The position numbers and the translations under genes are program-made. Below, piece by piece: positions 36,145 to 64,000 of a DNA stretch of 64,000 nucleotides. The stretch covers positions 62,001 to 126,000 of the forward strand of contig NZ_JALJZV010000001.1 of the NCBI RefSeq assembly GCF_024171535.1. Reading direction: 5' to 3'. This DNA comes from Flavobacterium sp. HSC-61S13. Its GTDB lineage: Bacteria > Bacteroidota > Bacteroidia > Flavobacteriales > Flavobacteriaceae. The notes under the pieces were generated by a model. The model saw only the letters and a program-made list of their open reading frames with translations. It did no database searches and had not been told where the DNA came from. Positions within the stretch are counted from its first letter, which is position 1; each line of letters opens with the position of its first letter.

Positions 36145-36993
36145 CTAATCTAAAGATGAACGATCCATGTAAACTTCCAGCGTTTCTTTTAATTTATCTA
36201 AATAACTTGTCCTTGATTTGGCTCTTGTTTTCATTCTGTGAAAAGCATGATGTATATCTATAAGTGAGATTCCAAATAAGCCTTGAAACAAGCCAGCTAT
36301 TTTTCTAATTTCTCCTTTGCCATGATTAATAGAGCCAGTGACATGAAGGGCATATATAAGCTCTATTAAAGCATTTTGTGACTCTGACCAAATTAATGTT
36401 TCAGATAATTGCATATACGTATAATCACTGTTTTCTTGCCTTCGTATCTTTTCTTGTAAATAGTTTTGTAATAGTTCATGTCCAATAATTCTAGAAACTT
36501 TGTAATCGTAGTAGGTTGAGAATAAGGGATCAATTTCAAAGGCAAAGCTGTTTATACCGAAGAGCAAGTTTAATTTTCCTAGGGTAAAATACTCTACATC
36601 TTTATCTATGCGTTTGGCATTGTAGTATTTGTAAAAGTCATTATGGCAAAAAAACTTTTTGTATTCATTATTTAGCTCTGCTATTTTTTTAATGTAGTAC
36701 TTGTTTTTAGATGAAGAATCCAATGGACAATTAGTCTCTATTCTATATATTTTGTTGTAAAAAATGAGCTTACTTAAAATTGTAGGTTTGATTACTTTAA
36801 AAAATTCAATTTCTTCATATTGATTTTTAAACCCACTATTTAGTACATTCTTTTTAAGTTGGTTTAGTATCAATTGTAAGAACTGCATCATTTCAAATGC
36901 TTTTTTAATAGTAATAGAATCACATAAATACAACTCTTTTTCTTTTGTCTGGATTTTCTCTAAAGTCTCTTTGTAAATAACATGTTGTGTCAT
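36145..36993 (-). CDS. rteC: RteC family regulator of a conjugative element
   Basis: 282 residues from the ATG at 36993 (M-T-Q-H-V-I-Y-K); the frame runs 12 codons further with poor coding character. The C-terminal 150 residues have the RteC family pattern: ESQNALIELIYALHVTGSIN, KGEIRKIAGLFQGLFGI, then FHRMKTRAKSRTSYLDKLKE and L-x-x-x-M-D-R. In CTnDOT, RteC activates transcription of the excision genes after induction through the RteA/RteB two-component system. Here a different (NarL-type) two-component operon diverges from it. It marks the start of the conjugative-element block. Confidence 0.88.
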   Translation of the reverse strand: MTQHVIYKETLEKIQTKEKELYLCDSITIKKAFEMMQFLQLILNQLKKNVLNSGFKNQYEEIEFFKVIKPTILSKLIFYNKIYRIETNCPLDSSSKNKYYIKKIAELNNEYKKFFCHNDFYKYYNAKRIDKDVEYFTLGKLNLLFGINSFAFEIDPLFSTYYDYKVSRIIGHELLQNYLQEKIRRQENSDYTYMQLSETLIWSESQNALIELIYALHVTGSINHGKGEIRKIAGLFQGLFGISLIDIHHAFHRMKTRAKSRTSYLDKLKETLEVYMDRSSLD

Positions 36994-37090
36994 AATTACT
37001 TCTTTTTGGTTGGTTAATTTTTGACACATTGATTCAAGTAAAATTGTTGATTTATCCCCTTATAAAATAACGCAAATCCACCTTGGAAAT

Positions 37091-37135
37091 CAATACGTTA
37101 AAACACGGTAAAATTGCGGAAATCACGTATTGTTT
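37091..37135. promoter_or_regulatory. Divergent promoter region with inverted ACGTATTG boxes
   Basis: CAATACGT (37091-37098) and ACGTATTG (37126-37133) are perfect inverted copies. On the plus strand TCACGTATTGTTT (37123-37135) is identical to the sequence upstream of the MauE gene at 39668-39680. On the minus strand TTG of the first box is followed after 21 bases by TATTTTAT, a weak -7 box for rteC. The TTG inside each box would be the -33 element. A regulator, perhaps the response regulator encoded here, may bind these boxes. Confidence 0.5.
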
Positions 37136-37187
37136 ATTAAATTAAAAATGTAAATCTTTATAAGTTAACTTTTAAATCATTAGTTTT

Positions 37188-37508
37188 ATGGATATTAACA
37201 AAAAAAATGGTTCCGTAATTGACCTTACTAAGGCGATTGAGCTAACACATTCCTATCAAGAAATGAACCCTCTAAAGGCAAATAGCTATTTCGTGGGTTT
37301 TGATAGATTAGACGATTTGTTACAACAAAATCAATGTGTTGGTATGCGCATTTATCCTGGTTTAGATAGCAATACAAATCAAATGAATATAGTTTTGGTT
37401 GGTGTTGACAAAAGCGGGGAGGATATGACTAGCGGCCTAATGTTGGATGAACTTGTCACTTGTCCACCTATGTGTCCAAAAGAGAGCCAGCTTGTAAAAA
37501 TTAATTAA
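37188..37508 (+). CDS. Small conserved-looking protein with a CPPMCP motif
   Basis: 106 residues, soluble, no signal peptide. The middle part (about 35-85) alternates strands and helices (KANSYFVGFDRLDDLL, GMRIYPGLDS, MNIVLVGVDKSG), and the tail has CPPMCPKES (about 94-102), possibly a metal or redox site. No family recognised. It is the first gene of a tight operon: its stop overlaps the start of the 7-TM gene by 1 base (TAATG), and kinase and regulator genes follow. It could be a ligand, a cytoplasmic sensor partner or an adaptor of that pathway. Confidence 0.7.
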   Translation: MDINKKNGSVIDLTKAIELTHSYQEMNPLKANSYFVGFDRLDDLLQQNQCVGMRIYPGLDSNTNQMNIVLVGVDKSGEDMTSGLMLDELVTCPPMCPKESQLVKIN

Positions 37509-38143
37509 TGATTTATAATATACTCTTATATGTAACTTTATTAGCAGGATTTATTCCCTTGATTTTATTTATTGGAAAGGGACTTTATAAAAAGAAGAAT
37601 TACGGTTCTATATTTCCGTTAATTCTGTTAATTGCTTGTTCATCAATTTATGAGTATTTAGGAAGCGTGGTATTACATCTAAATGTGATACCGTGGTTTC
37701 AAATTCATTCGTTATTAGAATTTTTAGCTCTCTTTTATCTTTTTAAAAATTTAATAGAAAATAGGCCTAGGTGGTTTTTTGCAACTTATTTAGGTCTTTT
37801 TCTATTATTCTATATTGATTCATTTTTTCTATTAGAGACTGAATCAGCACTTGTTTCTAAAAGTTTAAATAAACTATTTATGACCCTATTTGTTATAAGT
37901 TGTAGCTTTCTATGGGTTAAGCAAATATTAGATCAAAAGGTAATTCTAAAATTACATCAAAATGGTAGCTTTTACATAGTTATAGGGCTGTTTTTTTATT
38001 ACAGTACTACAATCTCGTTGTTTATCCTTTCTAATTATCTATATAAAAACGAGCTTTTCTTTAATGATTACTGGTTAGTGAATATTATATCGAGTTTAAT
38101 TCTACGAATCTTATTATCAATAGGTGTATGGAAAATGAATTAA
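37508..38143 (+). CDS. Seven-helix membrane protein of a signalling operon
   Basis: 211 residues that are nearly all membrane: helices at about 4-24, 34-57, 65-82, 88-108, 120-140, 152-175 and 187-207. There is no enzymatic motif. It is translationally coupled to the small CPPMCP protein before it (1-base overlap) and overlaps the histidine kinase start by 16 bases. Because the kinase itself has only one membrane helix and no sensor domain, this protein probably supplies the sensing part. That is inference from context. Confidence 0.75.
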   Translation: MIYNILLYVTLLAGFIPLILFIGKGLYKKKNYGSIFPLILLIACSSIYEYLGSVVLHLNVIPWFQIHSLLEFLALFYLFKNLIENRPRWFFATYLGLFLLFYIDSFFLLETESALVSKSLNKLFMTLFVISCSFLWVKQILDQKVILKLHQNGSFYIVIGLFFYYSTTISLFILSNYLYKNELFFNDYWLVNIISSLILRILLSIGVWKMN

Positions 38144-38898
38144 AATTGCTTTTTTGGTTAAGTACTTCTATTATGATTTATCTTGTTGTTATGGTGATTA
38201 TCCTATTGATAGTATATCAGAAAAACCTTATCAAATACCGCAATGAGCAGCTAAAGGAACAACTAAGGACTAATTTAATTGTAGAACATAAAGAAAGAGC
38301 GAGAATTGCAAAAGAATTACATGATGGCTTATGTGGAGATTTGGCCACTTTAAAAAACTTTGCCTCCGTAATTCAGGTAAGCAACGATAAGGATTTGGTT
38401 ACAGCTACTATTTCGGATATTCAGGATAGTATTTCACAGTGTTACGACCAAGCTTTAAGAATCAGCTATAATTTATCTCCACCTTTAATTAAAAACAATT
38501 CAATTGGTTTGCTAATTAAAAGTTACTTAGTAAGAGTATCAAGAGTAACTTCAATTGAGTTAAATTTTAGTTCCGAAAAGCAAACATTTATACTGGATGA
38601 ATTAACAAGATTGGAACTCTATAGAATTGTACAAGAAATGATTCAAAATATCATTAAACATAGCGAGTCAACCTTTGCAGATGTGACCCTACATTGGCAT
38701 ACAAATCATTTGATTTTAAAAGTAGTAGATGATGGTGTTAAATATGATTTTAATGCTGATTTAAAACAACAAGACGTGGGATTGGGCCTAAGTAATATTA
38801 AGGCAAGAATCAAGCAAATCAAAGCAGAGTTTATTCATGAATCAAAACATAACAGCAACTTGGTTCAATTAAAAATTAAACGAATAGATGGAAATTAA
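38128..38898 (+). CDS. Sensor histidine kinase (HisKA_3 / NarL-associated type)
   Basis: 256 residues. One membrane helix (about 8-30), then a dimerisation domain with the phospho-acceptor His65 in ERARIAKELHDGLCG, and an HATPase_c domain (about 160-254) with the N box EMIQNIIKHSES, DDGV and GLGLSNIKARIK. It autophosphorylates His65 and passes the phosphate to the response regulator encoded next (11-base overlap). It lacks an own sensor domain, so signal input must come from a partner, most likely the 7-TM protein upstream. Confidence 0.92.
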   Translation: MENELKLLFWLSTSIMIYLVVMVIILLIVYQKNLIKYRNEQLKEQLRTNLIVEHKERARIAKELHDGLCGDLATLKNFASVIQVSNDKDLVTATISDIQDSISQCYDQALRISYNLSPPLIKNNSIGLLIKSYLVRVSRVTSIELNFSSEKQTFILDELTRLELYRIVQEMIQNIIKHSESTFADVTLHWHTNHLILKVVDDGVKYDFNADLKQQDVGLGLSNIKARIKQIKAEFIHESKHNSNLVQLKIKRIDGN

Positions 38899-39571
38899 AG
38901 TAGGAATTATAGATGATCATAAGCTATTTAGGAAAAGCTTTGCTTTACTGCTTTCTCAATTGGAAGGGATAGAGGTAGTGTTTCAATGTTCTAATGCAAT
39001 AGAACTTTTAGAATTATTAAAAAGAACAAAGATCGATGTTTTATTTTTAGATATACAAATGCCTGTAATGGATGGATTTGAAGTAGCTCATAAATTAAAT
39101 GTAAAATACCCCAATTTAAACATTCTTGTTCTTAGTAGTTTTAATGATTCATATAGCATTGAGCGTATGTTACAGTACAATATATCGGGTTATTTGACTA
39201 AGAACAGTACCGTTAGTCAGTTAAAAAAAGCTATAATCTGCGTACATAATAAAGGTATTTATTACGACACTCAAATTAGCGAAATAATCACAGATTTAGA
39301 AGGTCATAAGCGCAGAAAAGACGTTAAACTGACTGATATTGAAGTTGAAATTATAAAGCTTTTTGCAAAACAACATAGTGGAAGAGAAATCGCAAAGATT
39401 CTTAGTATTAGTATGCGGACTGTAGAAAAGCACAAAGAGATTCTGATGCAAAAGACCCAAGCCAGAAATTTTATTGGTGTCATTAATTTTGCAATTTTGC
39501 GCCATTATCTCAACGACGATGATTTGAAACAGCAAGATATTAGTTCAACTATTTTAAAAAGAAATGTTTAG
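38888..39571 (+). CDS. NarL/LuxR-type response regulator
   Basis: 227 residues. Receiver domain 1-120: acidic pair Asp9-Asp10, phospho-acceptor Asp55 in VLFLDIQMPVMDGFE, and the conserved Lys in YLTKNS. DNA-binding LuxR-type HTH about 145-205: LTDIEVEIIKLFAKQHSGREIAKILSISMRTVEKHKE. It is the cognate partner of the kinase encoded just before. Targets are not known; the repeated ACGTATTG boxes at 37091-37133 and 39671-39677 are the best candidates in view. Confidence 0.93.
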   Translation: MEIKVGIIDDHKLFRKSFALLLSQLEGIEVVFQCSNAIELLELLKRTKIDVLFLDIQMPVMDGFEVAHKLNVKYPNLNILVLSSFNDSYSIERMLQYNISGYLTKNSTVSQLKKAIICVHNKGIYYDTQISEIITDLEGHKRRKDVKLTDIEVEIIKLFAKQHSGREIAKILSISMRTVEKHKEILMQKTQARNFIGVINFAILRHYLNDDDLKQQDISSTILKRNV

Positions 39572-39667
39572 ATTAAAAATCATTTAGCTTTAAATTTCAC
39601 AATTTTTTTTAATCAAATTACCTTCTTTAATCAAATCACCTTAAAATTCATTGAAAATTAGGTGAAT

Positions 39668-39705
39668 TCACGTATTGTTTTGGGATTTAACTGTTTGTAG
39701 CTTTG
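39668..39705 (+). promoter_or_regulatory. Promoter of the MauE-DUF6520 operon
   Basis: TTG (39675-39677) as -33 element, 20-base spacer, then TAGCTTTG (39698-39705), a full match to the -7 consensus TAnnTTTG; the ATG is 22 bases further on. The -33 element lies in TCACGTATTGTTT, identical over 13 bases to the sequence before the two-component operon. Confidence 0.7.
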
Positions 39706-39727
39706 AATATCCCAAAATGCAAATACT

Positions 39728-41200
39728 ATGAAAGCCAAATTCATCCTATTTATCCGATACTTTTTAGTATTACTATTTGTTTATGCAGCAGTAAGTAAGA
39801 TAATCACTTTTGAAGCATTTCAGATTCAATTAACCCAATCACCGCTTCTAAGCGTTTATGCTAATTTGATTGCATATTTAGTAATCATCGTAGAACTTAT
39901 TATTGCCTTATTACTTACTATACGAGAATCAAAACTTCTAGGACTTTATCTGAGTTATGGGCTGTTGGTTGCATTTACCCTATACATTTACCTAATCTTA
40001 AACTATAGTGATTTTATCCCGTGTTCTTGTGGCGGTATACTTGAGAAAATGGGATGGCATGAGCATTTATGGTTTAATATAATGGTAACAATATTCACAC
40101 TTTTAGCCATTTACTTTCACGATAGTAAAATAAAGCATTTTTATATTATTTCTCCTGCAATAACTCTAGTTAGTTGTCTTACTATTATTTTACTTTTTCT
40201 TTCTTCAGAACACATTATAAAAAAAGAAAATCCATTTATAAGACGATTTTTACCTCATGGAGTAGTTCAGGATAAAATTCTCGACCTAACTGTAAATTCT
40301 TTTTATTTTTCAGGACATAAAAACGACATCGTTTATCTTGGAAATTTTACAGCGCCTCTTCGTTTTATTTCCATAGATGAAAAACTCCAAAGAACAGATT
40401 TTCAAATACAGATTGATTCTTTAAAACTTCCTTATACGAATCTTAGGTTAAAAACTGTTTATCCCAATTTTTATCTGGCCGATGGAACGATTCCAATCAT
40501 TTTCATAGGAAGCTTAAACAACAAAGAACAAAAGAAAGTTGCAAAAGTCCTAAGTTACAAAGAGGCTTATTTTTCCGATTTCATTCCAATAGATTCAACT
40601 GCCATTGCTATTAAGGGACAGAGCAATAAAAACTATCACAACATTATTGGAATCTTAAAGCCTAATTCAGAACCAAAAGTTCGCATAAATAAAGACCTAT
40701 TAGAAACTAAATCAGATGGTGTTTTTGATACCGATGGCATGCTTACCTATAGTAGGGAAGATAATAATTTCCTTTATACTTTTTATTATAAAAATCAATT
40801 TATCCAAACCGATCACAATCTTTCGCTTATCAAAAGACATACTACAATAGATACAACCAAAACAACCAATATCACAACAGCCAAGTTAACAACAGGAGAG
40901 AATAAAATGACTACTCCTGTAAAAGCTATTAATTCAAAAGTTATAGCGCATCGCAATCTCTTGTTTATAATTTCAAATTCTATGGGGCAGAATGAGTCCA
41001 AAAAGATGTGGAAGCAAGCCAGTATTGTAGATGTTTATGACTTTACCAGTAGCAGTTATATCGCGAGTTTTCAAATCAACCACCTAGGGGAAGATAAACT
41101 TTCTGATATACTTGTTACAGACCATTTTATCTATGGTCTATTTGACAAGAACCTTGTTCGTTACAAAATGGCCAAATCGCTAATAAGCAAGTTTCATTAA
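39728..41200 (+). CDS. MauE/DoxX-domain membrane protein with a large periplasmic domain
   Basis: 490 residues. The first 135 form a four-helix MauE-type domain with the redox-like motif FIPCSCGG (Cys99, Cys101); MauE is needed for disulfide formation and export of methylamine dehydrogenase. A fifth helix lies at about 140-162. The remaining 325 residues are beta-rich and probably periplasmic, with propeller-like blades (KNDIVYLGNFTAPLRFISID, FYLADGTIPIIFIGS, FLYTFYYKNQFIQT, HRNLLFIISNS). It is followed after 50 bases by the small DUF6520 gene, whose exported product has four Cys. A role in folding or handling that product is a reasonable inference. Confidence 0.8.
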   Translation: MKAKFILFIRYFLVLLFVYAAVSKIITFEAFQIQLTQSPLLSVYANLIAYLVIIVELIIALLLTIRESKLLGLYLSYGLLVAFTLYIYLILNYSDFIPCSCGGILEKMGWHEHLWFNIMVTIFTLLAIYFHDSKIKHFYIISPAITLVSCLTIILLFLSSEHIIKKENPFIRRFLPHGVVQDKILDLTVNSFYFSGHKNDIVYLGNFTAPLRFISIDEKLQRTDFQIQIDSLKLPYTNLRLKTVYPNFYLADGTIPIIFIGSLNNKEQKKVAKVLSYKEAYFSDFIPIDSTAIAIKGQSNKNYHNIIGILKPNSEPKVRINKDLLETKSDGVFDTDGMLTYSREDNNFLYTFYYKNQFIQTDHNLSLIKRHTTIDTTKTTNITTAKLTTGENKMTTPVKAINSKVIAHRNLLFIISNSMGQNESKKMWKQASIVDVYDFTSSSYIASFQINHLGEDKLSDILVTDHFIYGLFDKNLVRYKMAKSLISKFH

Positions 41201-41250
41201 GGTTTAGCAACACCTTAAAAAAGTGCTATTAACCATTAAATTTAAATAAA

Positions 41251-41541
41251 ATGAGAAAATTTCTAAAATCTGCAGGATTACCAATCGGAGTGATTGTTCT
41301 TGCTATGGGTAGTGCATTTGCAACAAATGCTATTAAAAATGCCAATCTTCTAAGTGAACCGGGTTATCAGCAATTAGATTCCGAAGGATTTACATGTGTT
41401 GAAAGAACGGAATGCTCGGAGTTCGGTTCGAAAGTTTGTACCTGGAATGATCCAGCAACAAACATAGATCATAACTTATATCGTATGGAGACCAAAGATG
41501 GTCAAACGGCATGCGTTAAACAGTTATATCGCATAGATTAA
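41251..41541 (+). CDS. DUF6520 family exported four-cysteine protein
   Basis: 96 residues. Signal peptide about 1-25 (MRKFLKSAGLPIGVIVLAMG...SAFA) with a signal-peptidase I site after AFA. The mature 70 residues have four Cys in CVERTEC, VCTW and ACVKQ, enough for two disulfides. DUF6520 members are small, occur in many Bacteroidota and have no known function. The gene is directly after the MauE-domain gene under the same promoter and ends in a terminator shared with the S9 peptidase gene. It could be a secreted peptide, a pheromone-like precursor or a cell-surface component; this is open. Confidence 0.82.
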   Translation: MRKFLKSAGLPIGVIVLAMGSAFATNAIKNANLLSEPGYQQLDSEGFTCVERTECSEFGSKVCTWNDPATNIDHNLYRMETKDGQTACVKQLYRID

Positions 41542-41550
41542 CTAAAAAAG

Positions 41551-41572
41551 TGACGCCCTTAATAGGGCGTCA
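41551..41572. terminator. Bidirectional terminator overlapping the S9 peptidase stop codon
   Basis: Perfect arms TGACGCCC (41551-41558) and GGGCGTCA (41565-41572) with a 6-base loop; AAAAA on the left and TT-rich on the right. The stop codon of the minus-strand peptidase gene (41559-41561) lies in the loop, so the last codons (M-T-P-Y) form one arm. Confidence 0.85.
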
Positions 41573-44114
41573 TTCTTTCTTTATCAAAAGTAACGCCATC
41601 GGTAATCCATTGCGAGGTCTTTTCATCTTTTAAAAAGTAATCAAACCAGTTAATTATTCTACTGGTAAGATCCTCACTGTTTTTACTATCTAAAAGAGTG
41701 TGTCCTTCATTTTTATAAAATAGCGCTATATGTGGGATTTTGTTTCTTTGTAACCCCATAAAAAACTCTTTTGTTTGGTCGGACTCTATATTTTGGTCAT
41801 GCATACCCGACCAAGATAGAAGAGGTGTTTTTACTTGATCTACATATAATATAGGAGAATTGTTTAAGTACATCTGCTTGTAATCTTTGAATGAACCGGG
41901 CATATTATATTGGCCCGTTTCAAATTGAAAATAAAAAGGTTTGCTAAAGTTGTTATTGTATGAAAAGTAAGACCGTACCAAATCACTATTTCCTGCGCCA
42001 CTTACTGCAGCTTTAAAAATATTTGTCTGTGTGATTATAAAATTTGTTTTGTACCCTCCATGAGAATGCCCCATGAGTCCAAGCTTATTCTTGTCTATAG
42101 ATTTCTCTTGTTCTACTACTTTTTGAATTGCTTGTTCAACACAATATAAAGCTGATTTTCCTGTACCTAGATCATTATCTTTAATATCAGCATAAAATAC
42201 AAAATACCCTTTTTCGAGTAAAACTTGAATATTCATTCCATCAGAGTTATTCATGGAAGGGAAGAAGAAACTGTTTGAATGTTTGTTTAGAATCTGATAG
42301 ATTCTGGTAATCATTGGATATTTTTTAAAACTGTCAAACTCTTTTGGATAAAATAAAACTCCTTTGAGTTTATCATTATTTAAATCTTTGTATTCAACAA
42401 CTTTCTGCTTTCTCCAACTATACAACTCTTGAGGCATATCGCTTTCAAGCAGTACTTTATTTTGGTTATTAGCTACAAGATTAATAGCATGTGGCTTATT
42501 ATAGTTTTCAGTCCTATATGCGATAACTTTAAAGCTATCATTAGATTTAATAGATGTGATTTTATCTTTTGTAAAAGGTACTATCAATTTGTTTTTTCCA
42601 CTTTCAATTAGCTCCAACGCATGAGTATTGTTAGAGTTGTCTCTACGATGTATTAAAATATTTTCATCATTTACTAAGCTATTTGAACTTATATTTAATA
42701 GGTTAAACTCATCTTTATATGGGTTTAAAATACTTAGTTCCTCGGTTCGGTTTTTGTTATTTATTAAAAACTGTATTGCCTTTTTAGGATAAGAATATAC
42801 CGCTAAACCCTTGTTGGTATTTAGGTATAAAAGCTTGCTGTCCTTGGACCAGTATAATTTATTTTGTCCATAATCAGACTCACAAATAGCAAGTATTGAT
42901 TTTGTTTTTGTATTGTATGAATACCAGGTTTCATCTTTTTTGAATATTATAAAATTTCTATTAGGTGACACACTTACACTACTTCTAATGTTCGGTATTT
43001 GTTTTCCTACTGTTGTAATTGAATGAGTTTCTAAATTGTAAAGTTTTAAATCTGTAGGTCTTTGAGTATACTTGTAATCATAGTACTGATTTAAATCAAA
43101 ATATATGATTTGATTTGAATCTAAAGCAGCAGCAGTTTGATTCTCTAGTTCATTTAAATTCTCAATTTCGTTAGTGTTGACATTTACAATTATGTACCGA
43201 CTTACCTTAGTTAATGGACTATTCTTGTTTGTTTTTTTCTCTAGATTTAAATCATTTGTGCTCCATATTTCAAGATTACTAGTATCATATGATTTTGTGC
43301 CAGTTGTAGCAGAATAATTTATTAACACTTTTTCATTATCTAAAGATTCAATGCTTATAATGTTTTCCATAGAATCTTTCATTGCTGCGGCCTCAATAGT
43401 GTAAATATGATTTTTGTTATAGTCATACACATAAATGGAATGTCCGTTTTTACTTTGATTAATACAGTAGACAATTGGCCGAGTATTATCCCAAATAATT
43501 TTAGATACGTCTATTTTAAGATTCGTAGTTACGGTCTTTTTAAGAGTACTTAGATTAATTACGATTAATTCTCGAGTTAAAGTATCATTACTTTTTCTGG
43601 TTTGAACAAGTAAGGTTTTTCGATCTACATTGAGATCATATAAATCAACGTTTTCCTTATTTTCAATCCAAATAGTTTCCAATTTATCGTCCTTAATAAT
43701 AGATAATTTGTAATCATTTGTCTTTTTATCAAGATAAAACAAGAGGTTTGATTCTTTTACTATTTTTAAGTTATCGACCTCAGAAAGCAGTATTTTTTTA
43801 TTTGTATTAAGGTTTAAAAATTCAACATCTCCATTTATGGATTGGATACAAAGCAAAGAATTATCGAATAGTGAAATTCTGCTCTGTGATTGCTTTTTTA
43901 TAATAGCATTACTTTGAGTATTGATAACATAAACGGAGTCACTATTTATACTTTTATAGCTTTTACGCACCAAAGCCCATTTTCCATCTTTTGAAATCTC
44001 GTAGTTTTGCAATTCACTATAGAGATTATTTGTCCGTATTTCTTGTGCTTTTATTTGATAAAAGCTTCCAAAGAGTAATAAAATTACAAGGTAAATTATA
44101 TATTTAGTATCCAT
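41559..44114 (-). CDS. S9 family (prolyl oligopeptidase-type) peptidase, exported
   Basis: 851 residues. Signal peptide MDTKYIIYLVILLLFGSFYQIKAQ. Residues about 25-570 form a beta-propeller-like region; the catalytic alpha/beta hydrolase domain follows, with nucleophile motif LMGHSHGGY (Ser684), Asp in SGMHDQNIESDQ and His in EGHTLLDSK. It should cleave short peptides, often after Pro, in the periplasm or at the outer membrane. The start overlaps the susD-like gene by 11 bases, so it is the third gene of a susC-susD-peptidase operon; it probably processes peptides taken up by that pair. Confidence 0.9.
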   Translation of the reverse strand: MDTKYIIYLVILLLFGSFYQIKAQEIRTNNLYSELQNYEISKDGKWALVRKSYKSINSDSVYVINTQSNAIIKKQSQSRISLFDNSLLCIQSINGDVEFLNLNTNKKILLSEVDNLKIVKESNLLFYLDKKTNDYKLSIIKDDKLETIWIENKENVDLYDLNVDRKTLLVQTRKSNDTLTRELIVINLSTLKKTVTTNLKIDVSKIIWDNTRPIVYCINQSKNGHSIYVYDYNKNHIYTIEAAAMKDSMENIISIESLDNEKVLINYSATTGTKSYDTSNLEIWSTNDLNLEKKTNKNSPLTKVSRYIIVNVNTNEIENLNELENQTAAALDSNQIIYFDLNQYYDYKYTQRPTDLKLYNLETHSITTVGKQIPNIRSSVSVSPNRNFIIFKKDETWYSYNTKTKSILAICESDYGQNKLYWSKDSKLLYLNTNKGLAVYSYPKKAIQFLINNKNRTEELSILNPYKDEFNLLNISSNSLVNDENILIHRRDNSNNTHALELIESGKNKLIVPFTKDKITSIKSNDSFKVIAYRTENYNKPHAINLVANNQNKVLLESDMPQELYSWRKQKVVEYKDLNNDKLKGVLFYPKEFDSFKKYPMITRIYQILNKHSNSFFFPSMNNSDGMNIQVLLEKGYFVFYADIKDNDLGTGKSALYCVEQAIQKVVEQEKSIDKNKLGLMGHSHGGYKTNFIITQTNIFKAAVSGAGNSDLVRSYFSYNNNFSKPFYFQFETGQYNMPGSFKDYKQMYLNNSPILYVDQVKTPLLSWSGMHDQNIESDQTKEFFMGLQRNKIPHIALFYKNEGHTLLDSKNSEDLTSRIINWFDYFLKDEKTSQWITDGVTFDKERMTPY

Positions 44115-45474
44115 TATTCTGCGGTAGAAGGTTAGGGTTTAGTATCGTCTCTTTTTCAGGGTAGGGAAACAAAATGTGTTTTGGTAGCCAATTTGGTTTT
44201 GATAGGGATAATATAGATAGTTTATTATTTCTTTTTAAATCAAAAAAACGTCTACCGTGTTCTGTAAAAAACTCTCGTTGACTTTCCTTAAGCATTTCAT
44301 TGATCGATTCATCTTCATTTAAATTATTGGATAAATCGGGAAGCCCAGCTCTGTTTCTTATAGTGTTAAGTAAGGAGATAGCTTGACTAGATTTTTGCTG
44401 ATAAATTAATGCTTCAATCATTATAAAGTGAGCCTCCTCTAATCTGAAAATAACAGAACATTCATCTGTATTTGCTGTTCTATTTTTGTATTTATACGCA
44501 TAGAAGAACTCTATACCATTTAAAGTAATTGAACTGATCCAATTTTTCTTTCGCTGATCATTGGTGTCAAAAGCATTTAATAAGCTATTGCTTATTTGGT
44601 AGTTCGGGGCAGTTAGAATAATAAAATTATATGCCTCAGTTGTAGAAGCCTCATTACTACCATTACTTAATTGCCAAAGCGTACTTTTTGCTGTTTTTTT
44701 AAAAACCGTATTTAGATTATCCTCCATGGAGTAGAGCGAGTTCGACATTACTTTTTGAGCGTATGTTTCTGCCTTATTGTATTGCTTTTGCAATAAGTAA
44801 TTTTTAGCCAGCACTAGTTCCACAACCGCTTTATTGGGATAGTATTTATCACTAGATCGATATTGATAAGTGAGTTTTTGTTCTATTTGCTGTAAATCAT
44901 CTCCAATTAGTTTCAATACTTCCATGGAATTACTTTTACCAATCTTGGAATTCAAAACGTAGTTAGTAGTTGTAACATAGGGAATGTCTCCAAACAATTG
45001 TGCGAGCCCTTGATAATATAGCGCTCTAAGTAATATCGCTTCAGATAAAGGCACTTCTTTGTCTTTTGCCTGTATGGTGTTGGAAGCTATTAGTCCTTCA
45101 ATAAAAGCATTAATTGCATAGATATGGGTATACGAACTAGACCAAATATTTGAAATTGGACTTGAAGTCGGATTAATTTGATTATCGTATAGGGTAAAAT
45201 AACCTAAAGAAGAAGATGAAGGGGTTAAATTTTCTAATTCGTCGGTATATAATCCTAAGCATGTTCCTAATCCTACAGAACTACCTGAATATAGAGATCC
45301 GTCTCTAAAATTAGTATATAAGTTTATGAGCGCTGAATTTGCAGTCTGGATATCAGTATAGACATCAGGGGTATTTATTTGATCATTGGGCAATTCGATG
45401 TCAATTAGCTCTTCACAGGATTGAAATGTTAGCATTGATACTAACATACAAAAGGTATATAATAGATTTTTCAT
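44104..45474 (-). CDS. SusD/RagB family nutrient-binding lipoprotein
   Basis: 456 residues. Lipoprotein signal with a Cys in LTFQSCEELIDIELPND (Cys20). The alpha-helical TPR-like SusD fold shows in NIWSSSYTHIYAINAFIEGL, LSEAILLRALYYQGLAQLFGDIPYV, KNYLLQKQYNKAETYAQKVM and the C-terminal FRLEEAHFIMIEALIY...LLNTIRNRAGLPD and REFFTEHGRRFFDLKRN. It caps the SusC-type channel at the cell surface and binds the substrate. It starts 10 bases after the susC-like gene. In this operon a peptide or protein ligand is more likely than a glycan, because the third gene is a peptidase and no glycosidase is present. Confidence 0.93.
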   Translation of the reverse strand: MKNLLYTFCMLVSMLTFQSCEELIDIELPNDQINTPDVYTDIQTANSALINLYTNFRDGSLYSGSSVGLGTCLGLYTDELENLTPSSSSLGYFTLYDNQINPTSSPISNIWSSSYTHIYAINAFIEGLIASNTIQAKDKEVPLSEAILLRALYYQGLAQLFGDIPYVTTTNYVLNSKIGKSNSMEVLKLIGDDLQQIEQKLTYQYRSSDKYYPNKAVVELVLAKNYLLQKQYNKAETYAQKVMSNSLYSMEDNLNTVFKKTAKSTLWQLSNGSNEASTTEAYNFIILTAPNYQISNSLLNAFDTNDQRKKNWISSITLNGIEFFYAYKYKNRTANTDECSVIFRLEEAHFIMIEALIYQQKSSQAISLLNTIRNRAGLPDLSNNLNEDESINEMLKESQREFFTEHGRRFFDLKRNNKLSILSLSKPNWLPKHILFPYPEKETILNPNLLPQNNGY

Positions 45475-45484
45475 AATAATAGTT

Positions 45485-48400
45485 TTAAAAAGTTAGTTCC
45501 ACACCAAAAGCGTAGGTTTTAAGTGGTGGTAGATAACCTTGGACTGTAAACTCTGGATCCATTCCAAAATAGTTTGTTATTGTCCATAGATTTTGTCCTT
45601 GAAAATAAATACGTACAGATTCAATGTGTGATTTAGGAAGTTTAAGTGAATAAGAGAATGAAACATTCTTTAGTCTAATGTATGAACCGTCACTTATAAT
45701 TTTATCACTTTCTGTAAATCGTTCCTTAGAATCATTTAATTCACTATTTACCCCAGTAGAATAGAAACCGTAGTCACTATTTATATTCTCAGCCGACCAC
45801 GCATTAAGCATTTCAATAGGCTGATTTCTGATTGATCCGGGAGTACTTAAACTATAGTTGTAATTGTAGCTATTTTGCTTGACGTATTGAAATAAAAAAT
45901 CAAAGCTAAAGTCTTTGTATGTTAATGTATTTTGTAATCCTCCATGGTATTTGGTTCCCAGTTCTTTTATACTTTTTTTGTCTTGAGAATTAATTTTATC
46001 ATCCTGATTATAATCTGTAAAAACATATAGACCGGTTACGGGGTCAATTCCTTCAAAATGATATAGTTTTTTAATATTTACAGATTCACCTACCTCAAAT
46101 TGATTTGCATATGTAGAGCCTTCTAAATCCGGAAATTCAAGAAGTTTGCTTTTAGGAAAAGAGATATTAAAGTTGGTTCTCCAAGAAAAATCTTTTGATA
46201 TCAGATTAGTTGTGCTTAGGGTAAACTCCCAACCTTTATTCTCAATTGTAGCATTTAAATTATCTTGTACAGTTGCAAATCCCGTTGTTGAAGGTAAAGG
46301 TATTCCTACTAATTGATTGGAAGATTTGTTTTTATACCATGATATGGTCGTGTTTAAACGATCTTGAAAAAAGCTAAGTTCAATAGCTGTTTCCAATTTG
46401 GTTGTTTTCTCCCAACTAAAGTTTGGATTGTATAAGCGAGAAGGTTTGAGCCCTGTAGTATTGTCGTAAATAGCGGTGTTTAGTGTGTAAGTATCTAAAT
46501 ACTGGTAATTACCAATGTTATCACTCCCTGAGCTTCCAAAGCTTGCTCTTATTTTTCCATGATCTAGCCACGTTATCGACTTTATGAGGTTTTCCTCAGA
46601 AAAAATCCAAGCTGTACCAATGGCTGCGAAGTTCCCAAATCTATTGTTATCTCCAAATCTAGAAGAACCATCTCTTCTTCCTGTTAGATTAATAATGTAT
46701 TTGTGATTATAGGTAAAGTTTAAACGCCCAAAAAATGCTAAGTATTTATATTGTAGATTGGCCGTTTGTTTTATTGTTTTAGTCTTGGCCGAAGCAATAT
46801 TAGACATTAAAGCATTTGATGGGAAGTTGCTCCCACTAATGGCCAAAGAATTTGAGGTATTCTCTTGAAAGGTAGCACCAATAAGAGCATCTATTTTTAG
46901 ATTATCCTTGATACTTGTAAACCAGTTTAATTGCGGTTCTACAATATATGACGTCCCATTTCTTATAGAGTTTTCTGCCCTTGACTGTTCTGATGTATAG
47001 TTTTTAGCAGGGTCATGTATGGTATAAGGTGTTAAGAGATTTTCCTTAAAATTACTATTGGTAAGCCCTGTATTTAATTTAAAAAAGGTATTTGTAAACA
47101 AGTTGTAACTCAAATCTAAGTTTAAAACCAGATTATTACTGTTATATTGATAAGTAGCTTGATTAGCAGCAATGGGATTACCGTATATACCAAAATCCCA
47201 GTTCAAAGTGCCATCCTCATTGTATAGAGAAGGAGCGTTAGGAGCTGTAATTAAAGCTTGGGTGGTTAAATCCGAGGCAATTAAATTATTAGATTGAGTC
47301 GAATAATTTGTTGAAGAATTTACTTGAAGCCTGTTGTCTTTACTTTTATGGTTTAAGTTAATAAAGAAGGTATTTCTCTTATAACCACTATCGGTAGGAA
47401 ATACGGTGGTATCCTCATTGTGATTTGCATTAATTAAAAAATGAGTATTTTCACTTCCTCCAGATACTCCAAAAGATACATTTTTACTTACAGCCGTACC
47501 TCCAATTAGTTCTTTTTGCCAATTGGTGTAACGTTCTCTATCCCATGTACCATTCATATCATAGGCATAGACAGGAAAAGTAGTTACTTTATCATTTTTA
47601 AAAGCTTGATCACGCATCTGATTAAATTCAGATGTATTCATCAGTTTAGCAAAATTGTCAACTTGACTTAAAGCTGTTGATGAAGAAACAGTAAAACTGG
47701 TTTTATTTGTTCTATTCTTTTTTGTCGTAACCAGAATGACTCCATTAGCACCACGGGATCCATAAATAGCGGTTGCATCAGCATCTTTTAGTATTTCAAT
47801 ACTTTCTATATCATTGGGATTAATAGAATTTAAGGGATTTATGCTTCGGGCAGGTAATATGTTTACGGATAAATCAGAGTCTGACATATTTGAATCTGCA
47901 AAAGGAACTCCATCAATCACATAAAGTGGCGCATTACCATCGATTGCACTATTGTTGAGGTTTCGAAGACTATTTCTACCTCTTATTTGGATATCAAAAC
48001 CTCCTCCAGGAACTCCCGAGTTTTGAGTAATACTAACTCCAGCCATTCGTCCTTGTATGGCTTGCAACGGATTAGTTACTGGCTGAAACTCGATATCCTT
48101 AGCGGTTACCCGAGCAATACTTCCAGTACGTTCGCGGTCTTTAACGGTATAATATCCTGCATTAACTACAATTTCATCAAGGGTTTTGCTATCTTCAATA
48201 AGAGTAATGTTTAATACAGTGCCACCGGAGTAAACAGTGGTATGCTTTTTATATCCAAGCATAGAAAAAGTAATTGTTTGACCAATAGCTACATCAATGG
48301 AATATTTCCCATCGACATCTGTTGAAACAGATTTATTGGACCCCTTAATAGACACGACAACTCCACCAAGAGCTCCTTGGCTGTCTTTTACAGTTCCTGT

Positions 48401-48559
48401 TAGTTTAGTAGTTTGTTTTTGTTTATTTAATTGAACTAAATCAACTAAAAAAGAAAAGGTGTTCTTTTCATTTGTTACGGCATACGTAGGACAAGCGATT
48501 AAAAAACTTAAAAGTAAAGCAATCCTATAACCAATATTGGTTGAGTTTTGAATTTTCAT
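45485..48559 (-). CDS. SusC/RagA family TonB-linked outer membrane transporter
   Basis: 1024 residues from the ATG at 48559 (8 codons inside the open frame), which starts the signal peptide (MKIQNSTNIGYRIALLLSFL...). A CarboxypepD_reg-like domain covers about 50-130 (GTVKDSQGALGGVVVSIKGS), then the plug with VNAGYYTVKDRERTGS, LQAIQGRMAGVSITQNSG and DADATAIYGSRGANGVILVTTKK, then a 22-strand barrel ending in YAFGVELTF. It imports its ligand through the outer membrane with TonB energy. First gene of the susC-susD-S9 operon, on the strand opposite to the MauE-DUF6520 operon. Confidence 0.95.
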   Translation of the reverse strand: MKIQNSTNIGYRIALLLSFLIACPTYAVTNEKNTFSFLVDLVQLNKQKQTTKLTGTVKDSQGALGGVVVSIKGSNKSVSTDVDGKYSIDVAIGQTITFSMLGYKKHTTVYSGGTVLNITLIEDSKTLDEIVVNAGYYTVKDRERTGSIARVTAKDIEFQPVTNPLQAIQGRMAGVSITQNSGVPGGGFDIQIRGRNSLRNLNNSAIDGNAPLYVIDGVPFADSNMSDSDLSVNILPARSINPLNSINPNDIESIEILKDADATAIYGSRGANGVILVTTKKNRTNKTSFTVSSSTALSQVDNFAKLMNTSEFNQMRDQAFKNDKVTTFPVYAYDMNGTWDRERYTNWQKELIGGTAVSKNVSFGVSGGSENTHFLINANHNEDTTVFPTDSGYKRNTFFINLNHKSKDNRLQVNSSTNYSTQSNNLIASDLTTQALITAPNAPSLYNEDGTLNWDFGIYGNPIAANQATYQYNSNNLVLNLDLSYNLFTNTFFKLNTGLTNSNFKENLLTPYTIHDPAKNYTSEQSRAENSIRNGTSYIVEPQLNWFTSIKDNLKIDALIGATFQENTSNSLAISGSNFPSNALMSNIASAKTKTIKQTANLQYKYLAFFGRLNFTYNHKYIINLTGRRDGSSRFGDNNRFGNFAAIGTAWIFSEENLIKSITWLDHGKIRASFGSSGSDNIGNYQYLDTYTLNTAIYDNTTGLKPSRLYNPNFSWEKTTKLETAIELSFFQDRLNTTISWYKNKSSNQLVGIPLPSTTGFATVQDNLNATIENKGWEFTLSTTNLISKDFSWRTNFNISFPKSKLLEFPDLEGSTYANQFEVGESVNIKKLYHFEGIDPVTGLYVFTDYNQDDKINSQDKKSIKELGTKYHGGLQNTLTYKDFSFDFLFQYVKQNSYNYNYSLSTPGSIRNQPIEMLNAWSAENINSDYGFYSTGVNSELNDSKERFTESDKIISDGSYIRLKNVSFSYSLKLPKSHIESVRIYFQGQNLWTITNYFGMDPEFTVQGYLPPLKTYAFGVELTF

Positions 48560-49384
48560 AATGTTATAATTGTTTTGACACAAAAGGCTTTAAATCATTA
48601 AGATTATTATTGCCGTAGTACTTAAATAAGCCAACTGCACCAAAGGTTAGTTAATGGTAATAGATGATATTAAAAAAAGATAAAAACTATCTCCTCAGCT
48701 CTAAAGCACGTCTCCCAAAATGCAAAAAAGAGTAAGGAGATAGCCATGGACTATTAGTAGTCTTAAAATCCCTTTAAGAGCTACTTTGTGTTGTTTGTTT
48801 AGTGCTTACTAAAAGGTTTAACCTTAATTAACCAACTCAGATTAAACCAGTAGCAAACGTTTTTCCATAATTAAATAGTTTTAAAGATTGATTAATAAAT
48901 AGTACAGTTAGAAAATCTTTCATAGCTTTTTTACTGACTAACTAAGCTCTACTACCTTTAAATGAAATCGATAATCAAAAAAAAAAGGCAATAGTTATCC
49001 TGTGCGCATCTAAAAACTCTTTTTTAGACCTAGCGCAAAATGTGTAACAACTCTAACTAAATAGGTAATAGGGTAGCTGTCTGACTAAAAAAGTCAAAGT
49101 AAACTACAGCGATAAGATTTAGTTAAACTAAAATTTAATCATAGGCTAAATGCGTATTTAGTTACTAATTGTAAAAACTAAAAAATGTAATAATTGAAAA
49201 AAGTCTCGAATAGAATCATTCGATAAGTCCATTAAGGATAAGGTATTGCTCGCATTCCATAAAGAAACACAAAGCAAATCCACCTTGCTTTTTAAACCTT
49301 TATATGCCTAAATGGGAGACGGCATGAACTAAAGGTTTGTAGTATCATTAAATATTGCTTTTGTGAGTTTGCTTTATAAAAAAA

Positions 49385-62516: not shown

Positions 62517-64000
62517 TTAATTCTTCTTATTAAGCAAATGAACCAATTCAGGGTCGTTTTCAATACGTTTTAGCTCACATTCTATAATCAGTTCTATATC
62601 TTTTTTAACCTGCCTATAATTCGCTTGAATGGTTTGATTTAAAATATCATTTCCATCTGCGTCAATAAAAGAGGCTATCTGAGGTATTTGTTTATATCTT
62701 TTCATTTCTTGATTTACTTTATCATTATCCACGACTATTTCCGAGTGAAATATTTTTTGTTCAATACGCTGTTCGAAATTATCTGAGACAGCTCCCACAA
62801 ACATTCCTTGTGTTAAAGTGGATATTTTAGATGCCGGAATCAAAGTATCGAGCTGGGTGGATATCGAGGTAGAACGATCATTTCTATTTATGGAGATACT
62901 TTGCCTTTTTTGCAGAATTTTGCCAAAACGCTCTGAGAGTGCTTTGGCTGTATCTCCGACTACTTGGCCTGAAAAGATATTGCCTACAGTGTTTTGAATT
63001 ACCTTACTTTCTTTATCTCCATAATCCCGGTTTAGCTGAGAGAAATCCTGAAACCCTAAACAAACGGCTACTTTGTTGCTACGCGCTGTGGCTATAAGAT
63101 TATCAAGGCCTCTAAAATAAATGGTAGGTAATTCATCAATGATTACCGAACTTTTAAGTTGTCCTTTTTTATTAATCAGTTTAACGATTCTAGAATTATA
63201 GAGACCCAGAGCAGCAGAGTAAATATTTTGCCTGTCCGGATTGTTTCCAACGCACAGTATTTTTGGCTCTTTTGGATTATTAATATCTAATGAAAAATCA
63301 TCGCCTGTCATTACCCAATATAAAGAAGGAGATATCATACGAGAGAGTGGTATTTTTGCTGAGGCAATCTGTCCTTGCAATTGGTCTTGAGCACCTCCTT
63401 CCCAAGCATCCATAAAAGGGGATAGGTAGTTTTCAAGTTCAGAATAGGAGGTAAGTATTGTAAAAACATCTGAATACTTTTTATTTAAAAGTTCGACGGC
63501 ATGAGGGAATGTGCAGTATTTACCATCTCGATAGATTTTTAAAAACCAGATAATTGCAGCTAGCAGTATAATAGGGGATTCGACAAAAAAATCTCCCTGC
63601 TTTTGGATCCAAGAGCGGTTTAAGTTGAGCATAATGGTGTAGGCCGATTCATAGGCATCGGATATATCAGTCATAAACATTGGATTAATGGGATTACAGC
63701 GATGACTGCGACGTGGGTCATCAAAGTTGATGACATAGAATTTAGGAGTTATTTGATACTTGTCACTATTTAAAAGTAAATGATTGTATGCGATAGTAGA
63801 TAAATCATCAAACTTAAAGTCATAGATGTACATCGAAAACCCTTTTTCTATTTGCTGTTTGATAAAGTTATTAATTACCGCATATGATTTTCCAGAGCCT
63901 GGAGTACCAAGTACAATTGTGGCCCGAAAAGGATTAACAATATTAATCCAGCCTTTATTCCATTTACCATTATAGTAAAACTTTGAAGGCAAATTAACTG
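62517..64000 (-). CDS. traG: TraG/VirD4-type conjugative coupling ATPase (N-terminal part off window)
   Basis: The frame continues through the right edge; 494 codons are visible, including the whole ATPase. Walker A is GTPGSGKSYAV, just after the Bacteroidota-typical lead-in KFYYNGKWNKGWINIVNPFRATIVL; Walker B is SSVIIDELPTIYF. The N-terminal membrane helices are missing because of the window end, so no start is given. It is a hexameric inner-membrane ATPase that links the relaxase-DNA complex to the transfer channel. Its presence with RteC, TopB, DUF3945 and RadC shows that the right part belongs to an integrative conjugative element. Confidence 0.95.
   Translation of the reverse strand, partial: VNLPSKFYYNGKWNKGWINIVNPFRATIVLGTPGSGKSYAVINNFIKQQIEKGFSMYIYDFKFDDLSTIAYNHLLLNSDKYQITPKFYVINFDDPRRSHRCNPINPMFMTDISDAYESAYTIMLNLNRSWIQKQGDFFVESPIILLAAIIWFLKIYRDGKYCTFPHAVELLNKKYSDVFTILTSYSELENYLSPFMDAWEGGAQDQLQGQIASAKIPLSRMISPSLYWVMTGDDFSLDINNPKEPKILCVGNNPDRQNIYSAALGLYNSRIVKLINKKGQLKSSVIIDELPTIYFRGLDNLIATARSNKVAVCLGFQDFSQLNRDYGDKESKVIQNTVGNIFSGQVVGDTAKALSERFGKILQKRQSISINRNDRSTSISTQLDTLIPASKISTLTQGMFVGAVSDNFEQRIEQKIFHSEIVVDNDKVNQEMKRYKQIPQIASFIDADGNDILNQTIQANYRQVKKDIELIIECELKRIENDPELVHLLNKKN

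Follow-up and report, generated by a model that had tools for sequence, protein, structure and literature searches.

Maturation by MauE and MauD occurs in methylamine dehydrogenase operons, and self-sensing peptides are used by elements of Gram-positive bacteria, for example PhrI of ICEBs1 and those of the pheromone plasmids. The lasso isopeptidase clusters, in the available part of their published description, encode, besides a cognate S9-type enzyme, a TonB transporter as well as a sigma/anti-sigma pair (PMC9266682), and the isopeptidases act only on cognate peptides as far as the accessible text of two papers goes (PMC9266682; PMC11006600). Here we report on a window of 64,000 nucleotides (C1:62001-126000, C1 being contig NZ_JALJZV010000001.1 in the 3.87 Mb genome of Flavobacterium sp. 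HSC-61S13), in which the genes of a MauE domain fused to a beta-propeller (MauE-propeller) and of a small exported protein, DUF6520, converge with an operon for an S9 peptidase and a SusC-SusD pair. An earlier reading of the DNA letters without database searches, called below the sequence-only reading, had taken this region, together with a kinase operon and rteC, for a peptide-signalling or peptide-exchange module of an integrative and conjugative element (ICE). The five-gene unit looks like an undescribed loop by which a peptide is made, exported, retrieved and destroyed. In the open-licence papers searched, the words DUF6520 and NVEALA were not found, nothing relevant joined MauE, SusD and conjugative elements, and nothing was found on a peptide pheromone together with an ICE in Bacteroidetes; the available part of a report on ICEEa1 names two RteC genes and does not mention our unit (PMC5458099).

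Gene order, spread and genomic setting of the unit

All open reading frames of the locus are intact where the sequence-only reading had placed them, and the Pfam names agree with its gene identities except for two proteins, the small CPPMCP protein and the membrane protein beside it, for which neither Pfam nor NCBIfam gave a family at an E-value of 0.01. On the forward strand lie the MauE-propeller gene (39728-41200; Pfam MauE 99.3 bits, cut-off 27), whose membrane domain bears a CxC motif at residues 99-101, and the DUF6520 gene (41251-41541; Pfam PF20130 31.8 bits, cut-off 25.4). The reverse strand encodes the S9 peptidase with a GHSHGG motif (41559-44114; Pfam Peptidase_S9, E 1.7e-25), the SusD-like protein (44104-45474; Pfam) and the SusC-like TonB-dependent transporter (45485-48583, with an ATG start at 48559), which is named by Pfam and scores 714 bits on the SusC/RagA TonB-linked transporter model TIGR04056 (cut-off 368). 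The terminator proposed to be common to both convergent operons is present: positions 41549-41574 form a terminator-like stem, and each strand has a T-run.

When ten MauE-propeller proteins were aligned and used as query against GTDB genomes, at least 586 stretches encoding relatives of this protein were obtained, and all counts below for S9-type loci rest on the best 80 of these stretches. The unit is complete in 72 of the 80 loci, and all 72 have the same order, with MauE-propeller and DUF6520 converging on S9, SusD and SusC (strands ++---); as for the other eight, the contig end was reached in two and one gene was left uncalled by the script in six. The hosts belong to several classes and include Chryseobacterium, Flavobacterium, Sphingobacterium, Pedobacter, Chitinophaga and Draconibacterium among others. 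The closest MauE-propeller proteins among the matches listed (64-72% for the best six) come from a Flavobacteriaceae metagenome-assembled genome and Myroides species, which makes a host in or close to Myroides probable for the window. No match of the MauE-propeller protein was found in 72,556 plasmid records, from which records very near the window's genome were possibly excluded.

The linkage was also found when starting from DUF6520. Matches to the Pfam model of this family occurred in 28 of 199 same-family genomes scanned, and about 20 kb was taken around 40 DUF6520 places, which represent 41 of the 47 matches outside the window, six of the seven weakest matches not being among these regions; MauE is present in 38 of the 40 loci, SusC in 39 and SusD in 39. 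It had been said that a lack of conserved linkage beyond this window would speak against the proposed module, and the linkage of DUF6520 with MauE, SusCD and a peptidase turns out to be conserved far beyond it. Some units contain a tandem pair of DUF6520 genes (L065:9812-10584, L147, L150). In 21 of the 40 loci a fusion of about 800 amino acids (aa), joining a BioF-like pyridoxal phosphate (PLP) enzyme to GNAT, divergently adjoins the DUF6520 unit (e.g. L042:5243-7714, reverse strand), and the one such fusion examined matches a quorum-signal synthase model below threshold. NVEALA proteins, tried as a sister kind, gave weak matches in 2 of 198 genomes and none above the cut-off.

The S9 peptidase had been read as the enzyme of the module. 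It is indeed present, but it is only one of several interchangeable enzymes: the slot holds S9 in 8 of the 40 DUF6520 loci, M16 in 14, a DUF4953 Met-zincin in 8 and two redoxin types in 5 and 3, where the window S9 and one member of each type were named by Pfam. At least 8 changes of the slot are needed on a SusC tree of 36 units. Within the S9-type set the strict nucleophile motif is found in 49 of 80 copies and the looser G-x-S-x-G in 30 more, and L155 has GASAA.

Coupling-protein domains are encoded at 62517-63992 (reverse strand) of the window, and matches to TraN (C1:157435 and C1:181555) and Phage_integrase (C1:160898) follow further on the same contig, which is in line with the conjugative element proposed earlier; the remaining tra and mob names on the contig were assigned by reading sequences, and no direct repeat of at least 15 bases, as a sign of attachment sites, was found between the two stretches compared. 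TraN (DUF4138) occurs in 23 of the 28 genomes with DUF6520 vs 36 of the 171 others (Fisher p 6e-10), and 22 of 48 DUF6520 places in this family sample lie within 60 kb of TraN, where uniform placement would give 2.0. For the 47 genomes of named loci, 76 modules were counted, of which 49 are this close to TraN (3.4 expected on the same assumption); the count leaves out 18 fragment or MauE-only rows and weak or second-piece TraN rows, and comes from searches that took, of the 80 loci, the 50 and the 49 with the longest contigs, L115 not being included. The fetched flanks contain at least one element-type gene in 55 of 80 loci, or in 27 if only Mob, Tra, Top and ParA genes are counted, and the element parts beside the unit differ, being TraN, relaxase, MobC or RteC. 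Since these parts differ and the proximity to TraN is partial, the unit is a frequent but not constant cargo of conjugative elements, with changing backbones. The RteC-domain protein of the window, a putative excision regulator (36145-37029, reverse strand; Pfam PF09357, 217 bits, E 2.5e-64; no match in an NCBIfam scan) has counterparts near DUF6520 in 24 of 40 loci and near MauE-propeller in 34 of 80, and is a common neighbour of the unit; nothing was found here tying RteC to the peptide.

A stretch further on the contig (G000:C1, ~181-203 kb; L077, L078) carries a second, oppositely oriented set of transfer genes together with arsenic-type genes that resemble those at 27-31 kb of the window, the names being given by reading. 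Between the unit and the transfer genes of L075 lie an AbiTii-like gene (L075:14037-14957) and a PDC-M29A-like gene (L075:6434-7885), both on the reverse strand, as candidate anti-phage defence.

A candidate peptide loop and its competitors

DUF6520 has a signal-like start followed by a short mature part, which in the window holds exactly four Cys, as had been read from the letters. All 78 S9-type copies have four Cys, and all four are invariant in the 67 aligned; the AlphaFold model gives five strands and block means of 89-94 in the predicted local distance difference test (pLDDT) from residue 41 on. When all slot types are considered, DUF6520 has four Cys in 19 of 20 copies beside MauE with propeller and two Cys in 17 of 17 beside MauE alone (p 1e-9, a value inflated by kinship), two copies without neighbouring MauE, with 2 and 5 Cys, being set aside. 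Because the Cys number tracks the architecture of MauE, which strengthens the relation proposed for the two proteins, the pattern points to DUF6520 as a putative client of MauE and the propeller, and a client of MauE it likely is. On the SusC tree each of the two traits, Cys number and propeller, changes 4 times. C99 and C101 of MauE are invariant in 41 sequences, and the MauE-propeller model (pLDDT 85) combines membrane helices with a CxC loop and with a propeller that finds matches in the PDB; in our reading the CxC and the propeller lie on the periplasmic side.

With these parts, the unit, often carried on conjugative elements of Bacteroidota, may form a closed loop in which a peptide is exported, matured by disulfide formation, taken up by SusCD and cleaved, a reading that we put forward tentatively and at somewhat less than an even chance. 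DUF6520 would be exported via Sec and lose the signal-like start that is seen. MauE, as an inner-membrane redox protein with its CxC placed in the periplasm, would form the disulfide bond or bonds, with the propeller presumably serving the copies with two bonds, as the match of Cys number and propeller suggests. The stapled peptide would leave the cell, and the dedicated SusCD would re-import it from the cell itself or from neighbours with the same unit; the slot enzyme, whether S9, M16, Met-zincin or redoxin, would then cut or reduce it and so end or convert the signal. Expression of MauE and DUF6520 would be set by a local regulator, here the CPPMCP protein, membrane protein, histidine kinase and response regulator, through a putative operator. 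Neighbours might sense DUF6520, with a possible effect on element transfer.

Evidence cited for this loop includes the fixed order in 72 of 80 loci, the Cys-architecture match, the unrelated slot enzymes, the TraN linkage, the cassette-specific operator (9/9 vs 0/72) and sigma/FecR loci described below, and the likeness to lasso clusters. It also includes the co-variation of the proteins, studied in 67 of 73 complete units after near-copies were removed. Mature DUF6520 and S9 are the most variable of the five, with median identities of 0.30 and 0.28, vs 0.42 for SusD, 0.50 for SusC and 0.59 for MauE; within S9, the propeller part has 0.22 and the catalytic part 0.41. With SusC, SusD and MauE controlled, DUF6520 similarity correlates with that of S9 (r 0.30, p 0.0005), and with the rest controlled it correlates with that of SusC (r 0.14, p 0.0005). 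The window SusC is moreover distinct from the other SusC proteins of its own genome, the next best of which reaches 31% and 194 bits, while relatives' modules reach up to 1059 bits.

Several results weigh against the closed loop. In the scan of ten window proteins no outer-membrane route came to light, so that DUF6520 may stay periplasmic, and its model has no fold match in the PDB. The nearest solved relative of the window SusC is the SusC homologue 8aa4 (321 bits) with RagA behind (204 bits), and the sequence therefore does not single out peptides as ligand. DUF6520 and SusD show no correlation after control for MauE and SusC (r 0.006, p 0.43) and a negative one after control for all, and the correlation of DUF6520 with S9 may come from both proteins being fast and saturated. 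L053 is an exception to the Cys-propeller match, and the SusC tree, on which the row L033 has a very long branch, gives 3 independent Cys-propeller pairs, 2 in the same way, 0 opposite and 1 with no difference (sign test p 0.5). Besides, 26 of the 48 DUF6520 places in the family sample and 27 of the 76 modules lie beyond 60 kb of TraN, 22 modules are without TraN on their own contig, and, among the 47 genomes that contain the named loci, 6 lack any TraN match. The distance of many units from TraN, and a best solved SusC relative other than RagA, lower our confidence in the loop and slightly raise that in two rivals.

The relation of the window SusC to other SusC homologues as well as to RagA, the variable enzyme slot and the lack of an extra correlation between DUF6520 and SusD would all suit ordinary SusCD scavenging of oligopeptides or glycans with a periplasmic enzyme, MauE and DUF6520 being a separate periplasmic pair merely co-travelling. 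We regard this as rather unlikely, for 72 of 80 loci, spread over several classes, keep the two convergent operons side by side, the DUF6520-S9 correlation goes beyond SusC, SusD and MauE, and in 8 of 40 loci the slot is filled by a redoxin. That correlation, together with the unrecognised exit through the outer membrane, would agree with another explanation in which DUF6520 never leaves the periplasm and there serves SusC or the slot enzyme as partner, inhibitor or gate; one family would then need to act on four unrelated enzyme types, which makes it quite unlikely in our view.

Different units within one genome carry different DUF6520 proteins: of 12 pairs, selected by eye in 8 genomes, 11 have identities of 0.19-0.42, and the twelfth resembles a near-duplicate. 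Such differing peptides, and the variability of mature DUF6520 in general, could mean a bacteriocin-like toxin with SusCD and the enzyme giving immunity or entry into kin, and the RNA leader type discussed below does precede bacteriocin-like genes as well. The ten scanned window proteins, however, include no exporter or immunity family, and the lasso peptides of isopeptidase clusters are, bar one, without antimicrobial activity in the available part of the source (PMC9266682), so we hold the toxin to be the least probable of the readings. It is also conceivable, though unlikely, that conjugative elements of Bacteroidota have a self-recognition system built on a disulfide peptide, in which DUF6520 marks the carriers, the cognate SusCD and enzyme read and erase the mark, and local regulators use it to tune the behaviour of the element or to exclude like elements.

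Regulators and RNA leaders

The regulator cassette of the window consists of four forward-strand genes, encoding the small CPPMCP protein (37188-37508), the membrane protein (37508-38143), a histidine kinase with HisKA_3 and HATPase_c (38128-38898) and a response regulator with Response_reg and LuxR HTH (38888-39571), the last two being named by Pfam. What had been called a 7-TM protein is a membrane protein, but hydropathy gives 6 segments, not 7; the kinase described as sensor-less has no recognised sensor domain, while one hydropathy segment is present. The cassette had been included in the proposed module, and this did not hold for the conserved unit: CPP occurs in 4 of 199 same-family genomes, two of them weakly, and in 8 of 80 MauE-propeller loci, and neither CPP nor the membrane protein occurs in any of the 40 DUF6520 loci. 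The cassette is only the Myroides-type regulator of the unit. Other units have other regulators. In many Chryseobacterium loci the place of the cassette is taken by a 570-aa protein that combines TPR with an AraC-type HTH (one examined), and elsewhere there is PAS-AraC with DUF7793, LytTR with kinase and regulator, or, next to SusC, a pair of sigma and FecR genes. In 16 of 78 S9-type loci a protein of 267-298 aa is encoded between SusC and a sigma-like gene, and the 3 of these proteins examined are all FecR.

Where the kinase cassette is present, a conserved site lies upstream of MauE. In all nine cassette loci, which are close kin, ACGTATTG lies 58 nt upstream of MauE and is followed by TAnnTTTG, vs none of the 72 others. 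In the window this site is followed by TAGCTTTG (together 39670-39705, forward strand), which we take to be promoter-like from its resemblance to the Bacteroidota box. A candidate operator with the inverted pair CAATACGT-N26-ACGTATTG lies 5' of the cassette (37091-37132, forward strand), and the promoter pair of CAATACGT and ACGTATTG is found in 8 of the 9 cassette loci, L083 being without it; in two of the eight its position differs with respect to the called start. On the simplest reading, the ACGTATTG site is a putative operator of the response regulator.

The susC leader of cassette loci contains an attenuator-like hairpin, the loop of which is complementary to the MauE leader; in the window the hairpin and its T-run lie at 48682-48745 (reverse strand), and the sequence complementary to the loop, TCCCAAAATGCAAA, lies upstream of MauE at 39710-39723 (forward strand). 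The window positions 39710-39723 and 48713-48726 share 14 identical plus-strand bases. An RNA pairing of the two leaders was considered but not adopted as a finding. The shared leader core, of 9-14 nt, is present in 9/9 cassette loci and 0/72 others; its length is reached by shuffles in 0 to 15 of 40, depending on the locus, and among 77 loci the AT-rich unrelated L091 likewise has a 14 nt leader match. The hairpin shows one double change in 7 distinct sequences, which is not above shuffles. A hairpin with T-run before susC was also considered as a general feature and rejected as such (18/77 loci vs 9/231 shuffles).

Upstream of the DUF6520 gene of the window there is a possible H-type pseudoknot (41198-41228, forward strand), whose pairing is retained with changed letters in L079, L080 and L083; the pseudoknot scan alone is weak, as a score at least this high arises in 18 of 67 shuffles. 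The DUF805b RNA (RF02914) gave no match before this gene at E up to 1, and none is reported in its genome. In 4 of 6 relatives' loci it precedes DUF6520 at gathering score, ~50-60 nt before the start, and a DUF805b-type motif was found before 67 of 78 DUF6520 genes. In an alignment of 63 of the 65 distinct motif sequences, a pseudoknot stem of the DUF805b-type element pairs in 63/63, 88% of the cells of the whole structure pair vs 12-50% when it is slid, and there are 70 double-change cells vs 24 in shuffles; the numbers of pairs with a double change and of pair types are not above shuffles, 129 and 110 of 500 reaching them. Strong covariation is thus found only in the DUF805b-related element of other loci, not in the window pseudoknot. 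As the DUF805b RNA precedes many gene kinds, including bacteriocin-like ones, it is a general leader and says little on function. In L165, L166, L175, L183 and L189 it stands before small GG-leader-like genes with the spacing seen before DUF6520, and one of these genes is named bacteriocin-like by NCBIfam.

Significance and comparison with known systems

With at least 586 MauE-propeller stretches, a widespread unit of undescribed function becomes testable. If the loop is true, Bacteroidota would have a SusCD-based peptide exchange spread by conjugative elements, and DUF6520 and MauE-propeller would gain a joint function.

Regarding the known systems, our MauE domain, like that of MauE/MauD maturation, has an invariant CxC and adjoins an exported Cys-bearing putative client; unlike there, no MauD was recognised here, the candidate client is DUF6520, and a propeller is fused or lies beside. 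Our SusC and SusD are sequence-related to solved members of the RagAB/SusCD importers, whereas the putative importer is here paired with a self-encoded Cys protein and MauE. The relatives of our unit share with the DUF805b RNA an element ~50-60 nt before the DUF6520 start, but their pseudoknot stem is not in the shown consensus line. As in the self-sensing elements of Gram-positive bacteria, an exported peptide would be element-borne and imported, although our proteins are unrelated to theirs.

The lasso isopeptidase clusters of the astexin type (AtxE2), as described in the available parts of two papers, would share several traits with our unit: a small constrained peptide, a dedicated prolyl-oligopeptidase-type enzyme, a TonB-dependent transporter and a near-constant gene architecture (PMC9266682; PMC11006600). 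They also have a sigma/anti-sigma pair, to which the sigma-like gene beyond a FecR-like one in some S9-type loci may correspond. Our unit differs in having Cys instead of the isopeptide lasso, in having SusD, in a slot that can be M16, Met-zincin or redoxin, and in being often near conjugation genes. No lasso maturation enzyme was found among the ten window proteins scanned, the wider element not being scanned for them, and the window S9 scores 52.7 bits on the lasso isopeptidase (AtxE2) model, whose cut-off is 400; judged by this score, the unit is not a lasso isopeptidase cluster. By analogy, it may work as those clusters do, with disulfides replacing the lasso.

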